Assembly: GCA_025934735.1 (NCBI GenBank)
Contig: JAICWP010000013.1
Coordinates: forward strand, 1 to 64,000
Origin: Terriglobales bacterium
GTDB lineage: Bacteria > Acidobacteriota > Terriglobia > Terriglobales > Acidobacteriaceae
Direction: 5' to 3'
DNA: 64,000 bases
Shown piece after piece: positions 36,306 to 40,515 of the stretch. The notes under the pieces are model-generated. The model was given only the letters and a program-made list of their open reading frames with translations. It searched no databases and was not told the origin of the DNA. A program made the position numbers and the translations under genes. Within the stretch, counting starts at the first letter, position 1. The number at the start of each line of letters is the position of its first letter.

Positions 36306-36406
36306 TCGGCCCCACGTTGGGTAAACTCCTGTAACAACGAGCTTTGGGAGCCTTGGGATGAATGACCGGACGAGGTAAAGGATGCCCGTGACCGCGCGGT
36401 TAGAGC

Positions 36407-36476
36407 CGCGACAGGGATTCAATGAATAATTTTTTTGTTTCCGGCCATTCGCATTATTCATCGAAGAACTGTCGCG
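36407..36476. promoter_or_regulatory. 70-bp interrupted dyad upstream of the sulfur operon promoter
   Basis: Outer arms CGCGACAG (36407-36414) and CTGTCGCG (36469-36476), middle TTC/GAA (36418-36420 and 36463-36465), and inner arms ATGAATAAT (36422-36430) and ATTATTCAT (36453-36461) all share one centre at 36441.5, giving 20 of 24 symmetric positions. It ends 5 bp before the -35 hexamer. It could be an operator or a cruciform/hairpin; it is upstream of both divergent genes and so is not their terminator. Confidence 0.55.
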
Positions 36477-36481
36477 AGCGG

Positions 36482-36510
36482 TTGAAACTGCTAACGCTCG
36501 ACCTTAGAAT
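36482..36510 (+). promoter_or_regulatory. Sigma70-type promoter of the sulfur assimilation operon
   Basis: TTGAAA at 36482-36487 and TAGAAT at 36505-36510 with an ideal 17-bp spacer. Transcription would begin near 36517, only about 8 nt before the leader ATG at 36525, so the leader would be nearly leaderless and has no Shine-Dalgarno sequence. Confidence 0.7.
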
Positions 36511-36524
36511 GACCCACTGAACTT

Positions 36525-36614
36525 ATGCCGTCGCGTTCCCATTCCCGCCGGATGTGCCCTTGCGCTTGTTGTTGTGCGCTCGTGTCTTCTGGCTTGGAGG
36601 GAATGCTGATCTAG
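36525..36614 (+). CDS. Cysteine-rich leader peptide of the sulfur operon
   Basis: A 29-codon reading frame (ATG 36525, TAG 36612-36614). In the middle it reads MCPCACCC: five Cys codons within seven (TGC, TGC, TGT, TGT, TGT at 36555-36575). An internal ATG at 36552 directly before them gives a 20-residue alternative. It is too short and skewed to be a normal protein. It sits between a good promoter and an antiterminator/terminator pair before the sulfite reductase gene, so its job is inferred to be sensing charged tRNA-Cys by ribosome stalling. Poly-Cys leader peptides are known in mycobacteria; I know of none described for this phylum. Confidence 0.75.
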   Translation: MPSRSHSRRMCPCACCCALVSSGLEGMLI

Positions 36615-36655
36615 GCAATCTTTAATTTCGGCACTCATCGCCCACCGCCAGAAGA
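36585..36655 (+). promoter_or_regulatory. Predicted antiterminator hairpin
   Basis: TCTTCTGGC (36585-36593) pairs perfectly with GCCAGAAGA (36647-36655). After a two-base bulge, GGAGGG (36596-36601) pairs with CCCACC (36641-36646) with one A-A mismatch, 14 pairs in all. It uses the same bases (36641-36650) as the terminator's left arm, so the two are mutually exclusive. A ribosome stalled on the first Cys codons would leave it free to form; one at the stop codon (36612-36614) would disturb its left arm. Confidence 0.75.
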
Positions 36656-36679
36656 AAGTGGCGGTGGGTTTTTATTTTT
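36641..36679 (+). terminator. Attenuator terminator directly before the sulfite reductase start codon
   Basis: CCCACCGCCA (36641-36650) and TGGCGGTGGG (36659-36668) form a perfect 10-bp stem with loop GAAGAAAG, followed by TTTTTATTTTT to 36679. The next base is the A of the sulfite reductase ATG. A terminator so placed makes sense only as a conditional switch for the downstream operon. Its right arm also holds the only Shine-Dalgarno-like bases (GGTG), so the hairpin may block translation too. Confidence 0.9.
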
Positions 36680-38383
36680 ATGGCCAATATCCAAACAGAA
36701 ACCAAGGCACAAAAAGCCGAGCGTCTCAAACAGGAAAAGAACCCGTGGGAGAGCTTGGATGAGATTCGCGGCTTCGCCAGGCAGGGGTTTGCGTCCATTC
36801 CGTCCGAATGGCTGACCACATATTTCCGCTGGTGGGGCGTATATACGCAGGGAGATGGCGCCGGCGTGGTCGGGGGACAGGGCGGCGAAGGCAAGGCCCT
36901 GCCTTGTTTCATGGTGCGCATCCGCATCCCCAACGGGCTGCTGCTTTCTCATCAACTGCGCACCATTGCTGAAATTACAGAGCGTTATGCCCGCGGCATC
37001 GCGGATCTCACAGTGCGGCAGAACATTCAGCTTCACTGGGTTACGATTGAGGCGCTGCCGGAGCTTTTAGAAGCGCTGTGGCGCTGCGGTTTGAACACGA
37101 TGGGCGCCTGCGGCGACGTGACCCGAAATGTCACCGGCTGCCCCCTGGCGGGCGTAGATGTCGACGAAATCTGTGACGCCTCTTCTCTCGCGCTTGAGGC
37201 TACGCGACTGCTGGCGGGGAACCCCGATTACTACAACCTGCCGCGCAAATTCAAAATTTCCATCACCGGATGCCGAGTCTGGTGTTCCTATCCCGAAATT
37301 AACGACATCGGGCTGACCGCCACCCGGCGCGCCTTCCGCGGCCAGTCGGAGGTGGGCTTCTCGTTGCGCGTAGGTGGAGGTCTCTCGGCGGAACCGCACC
37401 TGGCACAGCGTCTGAATGCATTTGTGCGCTGGAACCAGGCGCTCCCGGTGATCACGGGAATTGCCGAAATGTTTCGCGAATCCCAGGAGTTGCGGGAGCA
37501 CCGCGAGCGGGCACGTCTGAAGTTCCTCTTCCTGCGGCAGGGGTGGACGCCGGAGCAGTTCCTGAACCAGTTGGAGAGCCGAGTCGGTTTTCGGCTTGAT
37601 CCGGCGGTTGCGGAAGACCCGCCTGACGATGTTTATCGCGATCACGTGGGAATCCACGCACAGAAGCAGAAGGACTATTGCTATGTGGGGGCTGCCGTGT
37701 TGCGCGGCCGCCTCAGCTGCGAGCAGATGCGGGCTGCCGCTGAGTTGGCGGAGCGCTTTGCGAGCGGACAGCTGCGCACCACCGGCATGCAGAACCTGGT
37801 GCTGGTCAACGTGCCGCTGGCGAACACCGAAGCGCTCGCCCGGGAACTCGACGGAATCGGCCTGCGGGTTGGCGGCTCGCCTTTCTGGCGAGGAGCCATA
37901 GCCTGCAGCGGGACCGAATTCTGCAAGCTGGCCATTACCGAGACGAAAAGCTTTACGCGCTGGCTGGTGGAGGAGATGGAAGAGCGGCTGCCGGAGTTCG
38001 ACCAGGAGCTGAAGCTGCATGTCACCGGCTGTCCCAACAGCTGCGGCCAGCACTGGATCGCCGATATCGGTATTGAGGGCAAAAAGATGAAGGCAGATGG
38101 GCGGCTGGTGGATGCGTACTACTTCTGCCTGGGAGGCGCCGTGGGCCGTAATCAGGCGGTGGCGCGCCCGGTGGGGTACCGCTGCCCGGCCAGCGAGGTG
38201 CCCGATGCTCTGGAGCGGCTGCTGCGCCGCTATCTGGATCAGCGGTTTTGGGGCGAGAACCTGCGGGAATTTTTTGCCCGGCACAGCGAGCAGGTGCTAC
38301 GCGAATTCCTGGCCGGAGAATTGGTGGATGCGGTAGCTCGGGACGTTTCTCCCGGGCGCGTGCCGCACGGAGTAGAGGGCTAG
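36680..38383 (+). CDS. sir: Ferredoxin-type sulfite (or nitrite) reductase, siroheme and [4Fe-4S]
   Basis: 567 residues. Two ferrodoxin-like halves and two siroheme/4Fe-4S half domains are present. The cluster cysteines are in IACSGTEFCKLAITE and VTGCPNSCGQHWIADIG. Family members reduce sulfite to sulfide or nitrite to ammonia by six electrons from ferredoxin. Sequence alone does not separate them; co-transcription with siroheme genes and an APS reductase argues for sulfite. First structural gene of a four-gene operon behind the cysteine attenuator. Confidence 0.9.
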   Translation: MANIQTETKAQKAERLKQEKNPWESLDEIRGFARQGFASIPSEWLTTYFRWWGVYTQGDGAGVVGGQGGEGKALPCFMVRIRIPNGLLLSHQLRTIAEITERYARGIADLTVRQNIQLHWVTIEALPELLEALWRCGLNTMGACGDVTRNVTGCPLAGVDVDEICDASSLALEATRLLAGNPDYYNLPRKFKISITGCRVWCSYPEINDIGLTATRRAFRGQSEVGFSLRVGGGLSAEPHLAQRLNAFVRWNQALPVITGIAEMFRESQELREHRERARLKFLFLRQGWTPEQFLNQLESRVGFRLDPAVAEDPPDDVYRDHVGIHAQKQKDYCYVGAAVLRGRLSCEQMRAAAELAERFASGQLRTTGMQNLVLVNVPLANTEALARELDGIGLRVGGSPFWRGAIACSGTEFCKLAITETKSFTRWLVEEMEERLPEFDQELKLHVTGCPNSCGQHWIADIGIEGKKMKADGRLVDAYYFCLGGAVGRNQAVARPVGYRCPASEVPDALERLLRRYLDQRFWGENLREFFARHSEQVLREFLAGELVDAVARDVSPGRVPHGVEG

Positions 38384-38396
38384 CAGGGAAGGGCCG

Positions 38397-39017
38397 ATGG
38401 AACGACTGTTTCCCATGTTCGTCAAGGTGGCGGGCCGCCGGGCGCTGGTGGTGGGTGCGGGTGCGGTTGGCGAAGCTAAGATCCGCTCCCTCCTGGACAC
38501 CGGCGCGCGCATCCACGTGGTTGCTGTGGAGGCGAACCACACGGTTTGGAAATGGGCGCATAAGGGCGCAATTGCACTGGAAGAGCGCGCCTTCGTGCCG
38601 GCTGATTTGGACGGCATTTTTCTGGTGGTTGCAGCCACTGCTTCGCGCGAGCTGAACCAGTTCATTTTCACCGAGGCTCAGCGCCGGCAGATCCTGTGCA
38701 ACGTGGTGGACGTTCCAGAACTCTGCGACTTCTTCTACCCCGCCCTGGTCCGCCGCGGCGACCTGCAAATTGCCATTTCCACCTCCGGACGGAGCCCGCT
38801 ACTAGCTCAGCGGATCAGGAAACAACTGGAGCAGCAATTTGGCCCGGAGTACGCAAAGTGGGTGGCGGAACTGGGAAACATCAGGCGCGAGGTGCTGGGC
38901 AGCGATCTGCCTGCCGAGCGCAAGCGCGAGCTGCTGCGCTCGCTGACCAGTCCCGGCGAATTCGAATTTGCCGTGGGCGGCCGCAAGCGTGTTCACGACG
39001 ACGAGGAGCAATCATGA
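38397..39017 (+). CDS. Precorrin-2 dehydrogenase / sirohydrochlorin ferrochelatase (CysG N-terminal type)
   Basis: 206 residues. FPMFVKVAGRRALVVGAGAVGEAKIRSLLDTGA is the NAD-binding Rossmann segment. GIFLVVAATASRELNQFIF, CNVVDVPELCDFFYPALVRRGDLQIAISTSGRSP and LAQRIRKQLEQQFGPEYA match the CysG/Met8 pattern, with the catalytic Asp in VVDVPE. Completes siroheme from precorrin-2, supplying the cofactor of the upstream reductase. Its stop overlaps the next start (ATGA at 39014-39017). Confidence 0.92.
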   Translation: MERLFPMFVKVAGRRALVVGAGAVGEAKIRSLLDTGARIHVVAVEANHTVWKWAHKGAIALEERAFVPADLDGIFLVVAATASRELNQFIFTEAQRRQILCNVVDVPELCDFFYPALVRRGDLQIAISTSGRSPLLAQRIRKQLEQQFGPEYAKWVAELGNIRREVLGSDLPAERKRELLRSLTSPGEFEFAVGGRKRVHDDEEQS

Positions 39018-39811
39018 CGGGCAAGGTTTACCTGGTGGGAGCAGGTCCGGGCGACCCGGAATTGCTCACCATGAAAGCTGTGCGGCTGCTGGCAAGCGCG
39101 GAGGCGGTGCTACACGACGACCTGGTGGCACCGGAAATTCTGCGGCTGGCGAATCCCGCGGCGCAGCTGCATAACGTGGGCAAACGCTGCGGGAGCAAGA
39201 AAATCAGCCAGGACGAAATCAATTTCCTTATGACAACCCTGGCGGCGGCGGGGCAGCAGGTGGTTCGCCTTAAGGGCGGCGATCCATTGATTTTCGGCCG
39301 CGCGGCAGACGAAATCGAAGCGCTTCGCGTGGACGGAATTCCCTACGAAATCGTTCCGGGAATAACGGCCGCCTTGGGAGCAGCGGCTGCGGCGGGGATT
39401 CCGCTTACTGATCGCCGCGGACCAGGGGCGCTGGTGCTCCTCACAGGGCACAGAGCTGCGAATAACGAAGAAGCCGATTGGCAGGATTTTGTCCGCAGCG
39501 GCGCCACCCTGGTGATCTACATGCCGGGCCACAACTATGGCGAGATCGCGCTCCGGCTGCGAGCTGCGGGCTTCCGCGGCGAGACTCCGTGCGTACTAGT
39601 GTCGCGGGCCACAACCGCGGGCGAGCAGGTGCATGTCACGACAGTGGCAGAGCTGGCGGCTGCGCCCCGGCTGGAGGCGCCTGCGCTCCTGATCGTCGGC
39701 GAAGCGGTCTGGATGGCAGCTGCATCACGGGAGACGTCCGTTTTGACCCCGGACATAGAAGAACTTATAGGTCAGGCCAAACAGCTGAACCACAGCGAGG
39801 TCACATCCTGA
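39014..39811 (+). CDS. cobA: Uroporphyrinogen-III C-methyltransferase
   Basis: 265 residues from the ATG at 39014, overlapping the preceding stop by 4 bp. KVYLVGAGPGDPELLTMKAVRLLASAEAVLHDDLV is the SUMT signature, followed by VVRLKGGDPLIFGRAADE, YEIVPGITAALGAAAAAGIPLTDR and SLVLLTGH-like ALVLLTGHRA. Two SAM-dependent methylations yield precorrin-2 for siroheme. The gene is separate from the CysG N-terminal enzyme, unlike the enterobacterial fusion. Confidence 0.93.
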   Translation: MTGKVYLVGAGPGDPELLTMKAVRLLASAEAVLHDDLVAPEILRLANPAAQLHNVGKRCGSKKISQDEINFLMTTLAAAGQQVVRLKGGDPLIFGRAADEIEALRVDGIPYEIVPGITAALGAAAAAGIPLTDRRGPGALVLLTGHRAANNEEADWQDFVRSGATLVIYMPGHNYGEIALRLRAAGFRGETPCVLVSRATTAGEQVHVTTVAELAAAPRLEAPALLIVGEAVWMAAASRETSVLTPDIEELIGQAKQLNHSEVTS

Positions 39812-39828
39812 AAGAGGAAGTAACAGCA

Positions 39829-40515
39829 GTGCAATCAGCAGCGGACACCTGGAGTGCGGAACTCGCGCTGCGCTGGGCTTTCGACCGGCTGGGCAACCAG
39901 GTAGCGCTCGTTTCCGCGTTTGGGCCAGAAGGCATGGTGCTGATAGACATAGCGGCTCACATCCAGCAGCGCTTCCGGCTGATCACGATTGATACCGGAT
40001 TTCTCTTTGCGGAAACGCACAAGTTGATGGCCGAGCTCGAAGAGCGTTACGGAATCAGCATTGAGAAGGTCCACCCGGCGCTATCGCCGGCCGAGCAGGA
40101 GGACGCCCACGGGCCAGCGCTGTGGAAGCGGAATCCTGACCTGTGCTGCGGATTGCGCAAGGTGCAGCCGCTGCGGCGAAAGCTCGCGGAACTGCGCGGC
40201 TGGATCAGCAGCATTCGATCCCACCAAACCGTGGTGCGCGCGGGCGCGCGCAAGCTGGAATGGGACGCGAAATTCGGCTTGGCGAAGATCAATCCTCTCG
40301 TTGATTGGACGGCCGCCGAAATCTGGGATTACATCCGCAAAAACGACGTGCCTTACAACGAGCTGCACGATCGGGGTTATCCCAGCATCGGCTGCACCTA
40401 TTGCACGCGCGCCACTGTGCCAGGTGAGGACGATCGGGCGGGTCGCTGGCCGGGGTTCGCCAAAACCGAGTGTGGCCTGCACCTGTCGGAGCCCGCTTCC
40501 AACAGTTCCGCCTGA
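39829..40515 (+). CDS. cysH: Assimilatory adenylylsulfate (APS/PAPS) reductase
   Basis: 228 residues from the GTG at 39829, with AAGAGGAAG about 9 bases upstream. VALVSAFGPEGMVLIDIA is the P-loop-like segment, TIDTGFLFAETHKL the next conserved block, SIRSHQTVVRAG the substrate loop, and KTECGLH the C-terminal catalytic Cys motif. LCCGLRKVQPL and GCTYCTRAT supply the Cys-Cys/CxxC ligands of a [4Fe-4S] cluster, so it belongs to the cluster-containing APS reductase type. It makes sulfite, the substrate of the reductase encoded first in the operon. No ATP sulfurylase gene is in the window. Confidence 0.93.
   Translation: MQSAADTWSAELALRWAFDRLGNQVALVSAFGPEGMVLIDIAAHIQQRFRLITIDTGFLFAETHKLMAELEERYGISIEKVHPALSPAEQEDAHGPALWKRNPDLCCGLRKVQPLRRKLAELRGWISSIRSHQTVVRAGARKLEWDAKFGLAKINPLVDWTAAEIWDYIRKNDVPYNELHDRGYPSIGCTYCTRATVPGEDDRAGRWPGFAKTECGLHLSEPASNSSA

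Follow-up and report, generated by a model that had tools for sequence, protein, structure and literature searches.

A candidate cysteine-codon transcription attenuator upstream of a sulfite reductase operon in Acidobacteriota, with related leaders at other genes

Our study reports on the leader region of a putative sulfite assimilation operon in a 64,000-nucleotide stretch of DNA (the window) from a Terriglobales bacterium of the family Acidobacteriaceae (contig JAICWP010000013.1, assembly GCA_025934735.1). On the forward strand, the gene sir, which encodes a ferredoxin-type sulfite/nitrite reductase family protein, is followed by cysG-type, cobA-type and cysH genes and is preceded by a promoter-like sequence, a short open reading frame (ORF) with a run of cysteine codons, and a set of alternative RNA pairings that ends in a terminator hairpin. 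From these sequences we conclude that the element is very probably a ribosome-mediated transcription attenuator that senses charged tRNA-Cys. A first-pass annotation of the window had proposed this reading, and the conserved Cys run, the conserved terminator and the partner-specific pairing found in relatives now support it; taken together, the relatives strongly favor an attenuator.

Elements of the sir leader

The promoter, the 29-codon Cys-run frame, the antiterminator and the terminator lie where the first-pass annotation had placed them, as confirmed by sequence, fold and repeat search (Table 1). It had called the attenuator complete; the parts that it reported stand, while the hairpin formed by segments 1 and 2 (1:2) and the inner helix of the antiterminator had been overlooked. 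In a promoter scan of the window the site scores 10 of 12, a level at which shuffled sequence is expected to give 0.4 sites. The terminator scan returned 36640-36669, with 11 pairs, under a permissive rule that is alone no better than chance (2 found against 1.4 expected). A blind search for inverted repeats over 36380-36700 returned four, among them the terminator (36641-36650 with 36659-36668, 10 nt, 100%), the antiterminator core (36585-36593 with 36647-36655, 9 nt, 100%) and the 1:2 hairpin (36540-36549 with 36596-36605, 10 nt, 90%), whose arms stand on either side of the Cys run. When folded, 36585-36601 and 36641-36655, the two arms of the antiterminator, are joined by about 14 pairs (expected number 13.6). 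Against shuffles the terminator has a z-score of -4.7 and the antiterminator one of -3.0; the 1:2 hairpin is weak in the window sequence alone (z -1.5, equalled by 15 of 200 shuffles) and strong across species. The U-tract, TTTTTATTTTT (36669-36679), abuts the sir ATG at 36680.

The fourth repeat (36407-36476) is a 24-nt inverted repeat of 83% identity with a 22-nt spacer, which ends 6 nt before the -35 box and folds at -27.9 kcal/mol (z -4.2); it is a possible operator and might provide a second layer of control.

Table 1. Features of the leader and of the downstream genes, in coordinates of the window.
Feature	Coordinates	Strand	Basis or detail
Sigma-70-like promoter, TTGAAA-17-TAGAAT	36482..36510	+	-35 box 36482-36487, -10 box 36505-36510
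Putative leader peptide ORF, 29 codons and TAG, MPSRSHSRRMCPCACCCALVSSGLEGMLI	36525..36614	+	ATG 36525, TAG 36612-36614
Predicted regulatory Cys codons, five of seven: TGC TGC TGT TGT TGT	36555..36575	+	sequence
Segment 1 (anti-antiterminator)	36540..36553	+	partner 36588-36605; repeat search and swap test
Segment 2 (antiterminator 5' arm and 3' arm of the 1:2 hairpin)	36585..36609	+	repeats, fold, swap test
Antiterminator inner helix, 36604-36609 with 36628-36633, around the stop codon	36604..36633	+	fold
Segment 3 (antiterminator 3' arm and terminator 5' arm)	36641..36655	+	repeats, fold
Predicted intrinsic terminator, 36640-36669, and U5AU5 tract up to the sir start codon	36640..36679	+	-23.0 kcal/mol
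Ferredoxin-type sulfite/nitrite reductase family protein (sir)	36680..38383	+	Pfam NIR_SIR
Siroheme synthase N-terminal domain protein (cysG N-type)	38397..39017	+	TIGR01470 above cut-off
Uroporphyrinogen-III C-methyltransferase (cobA/cysG C-type)	39008..39811	+	TIGR01469 above cut-off
Phosphoadenylyl-sulfate reductase cysH (reading frame)	39478..40515	+	NF002537 above cut-off

Conserved leader elements and partner-specific pairing across species

Of 61 related genomes, 47 contain matches to the reductase; 30 loci were taken from these, and the 80 best of 465 loci from named contigs were added; the latter are mostly metagenome-assembled genomes labelled Acidobacteriaceae, Acidobacteria, 'Candidatus Sulfotelmatobacter' or Terriglobia. 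Removal of L080, a duplicate of L006, left 109 loci, and 105 of these have enough upstream DNA (L028, L068, L084 and L110 are short). Under a rule of at least three Cys in seven codons, 89 of the 105 loci carry a Cys-run leader ORF upstream of the sir homologue, compared with 9% of Markov-shuffled upstream regions, so the retention of the Cys run in relatives, proposed earlier as a check, is borne out. Three contigs, judged by their equal lengths, occur in both collections (L002/L050, L003/L074 and L009/L078) and were kept; the distinct count is 86 of 102. Requiring at least four Cys in seven codons leaves 76 loci against 0.7% of shuffles, and requiring at least five leaves 56 against a shuffled fraction of 0.000. 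A hairpin with a U-tract stands between ORF and gene in all 89 Cys-run leaders, 20-65 nt past the ORF stop, and reaches -12 kcal/mol or lower in 87 of them and in 33 of 445 shuffles; at the loosest cut, -6 kcal/mol, 128 of the 445 shuffles pass. The leader peptides of relatives have a recurring motif at the C-terminus and as many as 9 Cys. Their Cys codons are predominantly TGT: at 56 loci it accounts for 214 of 300 in the leaders and for 84 of 654 in the sir genes. This preference could slow decoding and sharpen the sensor, or could simply avoid structure.

A promoter-like site precedes the Cys run in 74 of the 89 leaders, against 14% of shuffles. The start codon follows the -10 box after 14 nt in the window and after 5-14 nt in 70 of the 74 promoter-bearing leaders (median 10 nt), with the start taken as the nearest in-frame ATG, a choice that favors short distances. 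Transcription starts about 7 nt after a -10 box, and because the ATG lies 5-14 nt past it, the leader ORF is probably leaderless, or nearly so, relative to the transcript start that we infer.

Column-wise covariation is a blunt instrument for this element, since the core is conserved and the loop misaligns, and we therefore relied on a swap test. In this test the duplex energy of a leader's own partner segments is compared with that of partners taken from other species, over 20,000 permutations, in 56 leaders less than 80% alike that include at most one of each same-contig pair; L009 and L078 were excluded from pairing and folding, so that 87 of the 89 leaders were used. Each of the three predicted pairings is partner-specific, and in none did any of the 20,000 permutations do as well: own segments give -24.4 kcal/mol against -20.8 when swapped for 1:2 (z -8.1), -19.3 against -17.0 for 2:3 (z -6.8), and -24.6 against -17.6 for 3:4 (z -17.7), in statistics that ignore kinship among the leaders. 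The unpredicted pairings 1:3 and 2:4, which serve as internal controls, show no excess, own segments being slightly worse, and 1:4 shows a slight, non-significant one (z -1.6, 1257 of 20,000). The result holds in both subsets: among the 39 leaders with a CTGGC-type core, 0, 2 and 0 of 20,000 permutations reach the own values for 1:2, 2:3 and 3:4, and among the other 17 leaders 4, 0 and 0 do so. The sequence elements, their conservation and their partner-specific pairing across species are direct observations.

Several observations in the same material weigh against our reading, the neglect of kinship in the swap test among them. By the rule above, the Cys-run ORF is missing from 16 of the 105 loci; L021, L097, L106 (a groundwater acidobacterium) and ten loci labelled Rokubacteria or Methylomirabilota lack the sir element, and a strong terminator stands without a Cys run in L073, L101, L104, L106 and L109. 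Three negatives are explained, by a gap in the assembly that covers the leader but leaves the terminator visible (L088), by a sub-threshold Cys ORF (L027) and by a match that stops short of the gene start (L030). In L009 and L078, one contig, the ORF ends right after the Cys run and the geometry is broken. Column-wise covariation, counted on MAFFT alignments of the 39 leaders against 500 shuffles, is modest; it agrees with the swap test and is weaker. For the antiterminator the observed value is reached by 4 shuffles for cells paired, 5 for cells changed on both sides and 21 for the covariation score, and also by 104 for pairs changed on both sides and 342 for pair types; for the terminator the same five measures, pair types last, give 0, 0, 1, 6 and 473. 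The covariation that had been proposed as a check in both hairpins is present as partner-specific pairing in the swap test, while the column counts are modest and pair types fall within the range of shuffles. Individual positions vary: the antiterminator pair beside the invariant CTGG core is UA in 19 leaders, AU in 5, GC in 1 and unpaired in 14 of 39, and one aligned position of the inner helix is UG in 20, UA in 9, CG in 4 and unpaired in 6. In the small hairpin at the stop codon, no more than 41.5% of cells are paired.

The 150 nt upstream of sir in four loci labelled Rokubacteria or Methylomirabilota (L073, L101, L104 and L109) contain a terminator with a GCCGAG-type stem and no Rfam match, which is perhaps a different attenuator.

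Copies of the core with other codons and other target genes

A covariance model (R1) was built on the core past the Cys run, leaving most of the Cys run outside the model. At E <= 0.1 it has matches in 24 of the 61 related genomes; in a set of 150 family genomes, 65 have one at E <= 0.001. We examined 59 second-tier loci, 19 from related genomes and 40 stretches of family genomes, other family matches, some of them better scoring, lying outside this set; the count covers 57 of them, without the partial matches L193 and L194 (38 and 67 nt). At least four Cys codons are found in 16 of 19 sulfate and cysteine loci (sir, cysG, cobA, cysD, cysK and NirA-like reductase) and in none of 24 aspartokinase, homoserine dehydrogenase, ilvC or ilvB loci (Fisher p = 3.7e-9), and the remaining 14 core-bearing loci have 3-7. 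The three sulfur loci that miss the mark are L188 and L201, with three Cys each, and L191, whose Cys ORF ends outside the stretch examined. Aspartokinase leaders are in turn richer in Thr codons than sulfur leaders (p = 1e-6). Since the Cys run lies mostly outside R1, this agreement between codons and genes is for the most part an independent indication that the signal resides in the codons rather than in the peptide.

The window genome has two copies of the core, one before sir with Cys codons and one before aspartokinase with Thr codons. The second copy (G000:C24:47571-47671; L197 1501-1601) has a Thr/Met/Ile-coded leader, MRSLIQSTGRTMTMTTMAMRITALLEEGAG, as read by eye. Elsewhere the core precedes ilvC (L189 and L234), ilvB (L238 and L239, identical copies in one genome) and hom (L183, L236 and L243); the L189 leader is Ile/Val-coded, those of L238 and L239 are Val-coded, and the hom leaders carry Thr/Met codons.

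Cys leaders with the same core also stand before genes for an SrpI-type type 2A encapsulin (L223, L228, L247 and L253; PF19307, E 4.6e-100 or lower). In a cyanobacterium, SrpI and its cysteine desulfurase cargo increase under sulfur starvation (PMC8049743), an induction that fits the placement of these leaders. L260 and L250 have Cys leaders before genes for a sulfate-binding and a sulfonate-binding protein, respectively, both identified above cut-offs, and L241 has one before a gene for a rhodanese-domain protein. Others were seen before a peroxiredoxin (L261), a carbonic anhydrase family protein (L233), a PIG-L deacetylase (L249), an aminotransferase of class V (L256, without a U-tract) and a gene with no NCBIfam family at 1e-8 (L192); not all of these are known in cysteine metabolism, and they are possible new members of the regulon.

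Attenuators precede cysK in L231, L237 and L248 (cysK above cut-off). We considered cysK as a general target and rejected it: 30 cysK-like loci from 37 relatives gave 29 usable ones (L331 is misplaced by a contig end), and none of the 29 has a well-placed Cys-run ORF with a terminator, so the three cysK attenuators are lineage-specific. The nearest approaches are L313, with three Cys about 310-370 nt upstream of cysK and a weak hairpin, and L311, L312, L318 and L319, with three Cys and no terminator. At cysD, a Cys ORF with a hairpin is found in 7 of 9 loci of at least 70% identity (L340, L341 and L344-L348), where the leaders of L345, L346 and L348 have only three Cys and the hairpin of L348 is weak (-9.3); L343 lacks the pair and L342 had no upstream DNA. 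Six of seven more distant cysD loci lack it, and the seventh, L353, is misplaced. On the contig of L201 and L340, the Cys ORF that the model matched is not the closest to cysD; another one, with a hairpin, lies between them or otherwise nearer to the gene. The window genome has no cysD match at E <= 1e-60, and of its two cysK-like genes, the one examined (L330) lacks an attenuator. Pattern scans of the window genome for Cys runs returned 93 and 66 places, against 12 and 14 for reversed-pattern controls, and were not used; most of their TGC-TGC runs probably come from other coding repeats read on the opposite strand. The sir leader was found by the 66-place scan only, because its three adjacent Cys codons are too few for the other.

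In two genomes of one genus, a Cys leader with a terminator lies directly before a gene for tRNA-Cys (GCA) (L200 1501-1695 and L224 401-605). In one of them, G028, no other tRNA-Cys is present among 57 of 62 tRNA places checked, and the remaining five are 82-115 nt long, unsuited to tRNA-Cys. Among 12 other loci with such leaders searched against Rfam, the only matches at gathering score are these two tRNA genes. Six tRNA-Cys-like loci of other genomes (L263-L268, one of them 96% alike) have no Cys-run leader, which makes the tRNA-Cys target a feature of the lineage. If the arrangement works as it appears to, the supply of the tRNA would be set by the charging of that same tRNA, a direct feedback. 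The same genome packs 13 tRNA genes into an array of 1.2 kb (G028:C6:181219-182390; L297).

We propose, with confidence evenly divided for and against, that Acidobacteriota possess a modular chassis of segments 2-4 and a nearly leaderless ORF, which has been copied between operons and retuned by codon swap, and which in one genus controls what is possibly the sole tRNA-Cys gene. The codon sets would be Cys for sulfur genes and the SrpI encapsulin, Thr for aspartokinase, Ile/Val for ilvC and Val for ilvB. Two parts of this proposal are surprising, the shared chassis and the tRNA target: function could be read from codons across a whole set of leaders, and the pairing of the same core with different codons makes the evolution of attenuators testable.

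A model of the switch, its alternatives and its precedents

Our data suggest a model for the sir leader in which transcription would begin a few bases upstream of the leader ORF. Under a shortage of Cys-tRNA, the ribosome would stall in 36555-36575, cover segment 1 and free segment 2 from about 36585, which could then pair with segment 3 before segment 4 is made; no terminator would form, and transcription would read through into sir-cysG-cobA-cysH. When Cys-tRNA is plentiful, the ribosome would reach the stop codon at 36612-36614 and cover segment 2, allowing the 3:4 terminator to form and transcription to stop at the U-tract. With no ribosome initiating, 1:2 would form and the terminator with it. 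What we infer from sequence is where transcription starts, that the ORF is translated, that the ribosome stalls, that transcription terminates and that the leader responds to cysteine.

The switch was modelled by folding the 87 leaders with ribosome-covered bases removed. When the ribosome is placed in the Cys run and the RNA ends before segment 4, 85 of the 87 leaders form 2:3; when it is placed at the stop codon, all of them form the terminator; and without a ribosome 85 form the terminator and 84 form 1:2. The antiterminator arm starts a median of 12 nt after the last Cys codon (the middle 80% span 6-17 nt), about where a stalled ribosome would end, and the last Cys codon begins a median of 45 nt before the end of the stop codon. 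The whole leader at equilibrium speaks for the opposite outcome, as in the stalled state the terminator wins and 2:3 keeps at least 5 pairs in 2 of the 87. With the terminator the equilibrium winner even under stalling, the switch must be kinetic, set by the order of transcription. The leader of the E. coli trp operon behaves in the same way in the same calculation, including the win of the terminator at equilibrium.

Stalling in the Cys run could instead act on translation or through Rho, as has been proposed for mycobacterial cys operons, with the hairpin an ordinary terminator. The leader ORF is probably nearly leaderless, as in mycobacteria, and between the U-tract and the sir ATG of the window there is no room for a ribosome-binding site, both of which this explanation would accommodate; it is nevertheless highly improbable, because the 1:2, antiterminator and terminator pairings are each matched within species, the terminator keeps its place past the ORF stop in every one of the 89 leaders, and the two copies of the design before a tRNA gene leave no downstream translation to be the target. 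Still less likely is that the short ORF makes a Cys-rich peptide with its own job in metal or redox binding, the hairpins merely ending its transcript. The Cys-rich peptides and their recurring C-terminal motif would be expected of such a product, but the recurring part coincides with the RNA that pairs with segments 1 and 3, leaders in which the core precedes aspartokinase, hom or ilv genes are poor in Cys codons and carry mainly those for Thr or Ile/Val, and the sir leaders prefer TGT where the sir genes prefer TGC. Control of the terminator by a ligand-binding riboswitch or T-box with an incidental ORF, a kind of control that operates on sulfur genes of other phyla, has the slimmest likelihood of all, given the conserved ORF and Cys run, the absence of any Rfam family match (T-box and riboswitch included) to the window leader even at E up to 1, and the 12 other leader loci that matched nothing but the two tRNA genes at gathering score.

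The attenuator that we favor resembles the trp, his, thr and leu leaders of enterobacteria in its end-product codons, its 1:2, 2:3 and 3:4 pairings and its intrinsic terminator, and the hallmarks of the trp type are present: cognate codons, an intrinsic terminator, an exclusive and well-spaced antiterminator, and a 1:2 hairpin. Unlike those leaders it has Cys codons, occurs in Acidobacteriota, places its ORF near the likely 5' end of the transcript with no room for a usual ribosome-binding site, and shares a common core with leaders that carry different codons before different genes.

The poly-Cys ORFs of mycobacteria treated by Canestrari et al. in 2020 are reportedly leaderless, as the title of that work has it, and are said in a sentence citing it to act by translation attenuation. 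The window leader is like them in standing before cysteine biosynthesis genes and in being probably nearly leaderless, and unlike them in its conserved terminator/antiterminator pair. The first-pass annotation had set the two designs apart; the distinction probably fails for the start of the ORF and stands for this pair. An earlier report describes poly-Cys leader ORFs before mycobacterial cys operons, where no terminator hairpins were found (PMC1262725). The closest precedent is uORFC-8-2, upstream of cysS in Rhodobacterales, for which Cys-codon attenuation with an intrinsic terminator has been predicted (PMC8632094). It shares with the window leader tandem Cys codons in an upstream ORF, a first stem that holds them, a terminator and a predicted response to Cys-tRNA; it differs in being alphaproteobacterial, in its gene and in having two Cys codons, usually at positions 14 and 15, where the window leader has five in seven before a sir operon. 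An upstream ORF at Corynebacterium ilvB, with regulatory codons, an antiterminator sequence inside the first stem and an intrinsic terminator (PMC11109978), resembles the window design and differs in its branched-chain codons and actinobacterial host. Attenuators of Acidobacteria have been said to lack functions (PMC2965389). In the openly licensed literature searched there is no described Cys attenuation in Acidobacteria and no attenuated tRNA-Cys gene, and the earlier statement that no case was known in this phylum holds there. Because attenuation by Cys codons with a terminator was already predicted for cysS, what is new here, within that literature, is the gene and the phylum, and the model offers a working hypothesis for the control of sulfur assimilation in a common group of soil bacteria.

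The gene under this control merits separate comment. The best NCBIfam models for sir are ferredoxin-nitrite reductase and NirA, below their cut-offs, a point against a sulfite substrate; its substrate is thus read from operon and leader, and the Cys attenuator together with the cysG-cobA-cysH neighbors suggests that the reductase reduces sulfite. Where a NirA-like reductase stands under cysteine control, sulfite reduction is its more likely activity, which offers a way to label genes of uncertain substrate. The order sir-cysG-cobA-cysH is kept in 46 of 63 attenuator-bearing loci among L031-L110, some contigs ending before the operon does. In the window, the match to cysH spans residues 111-338, and the gene start therefore lies further in than the start of the frame at 39478.

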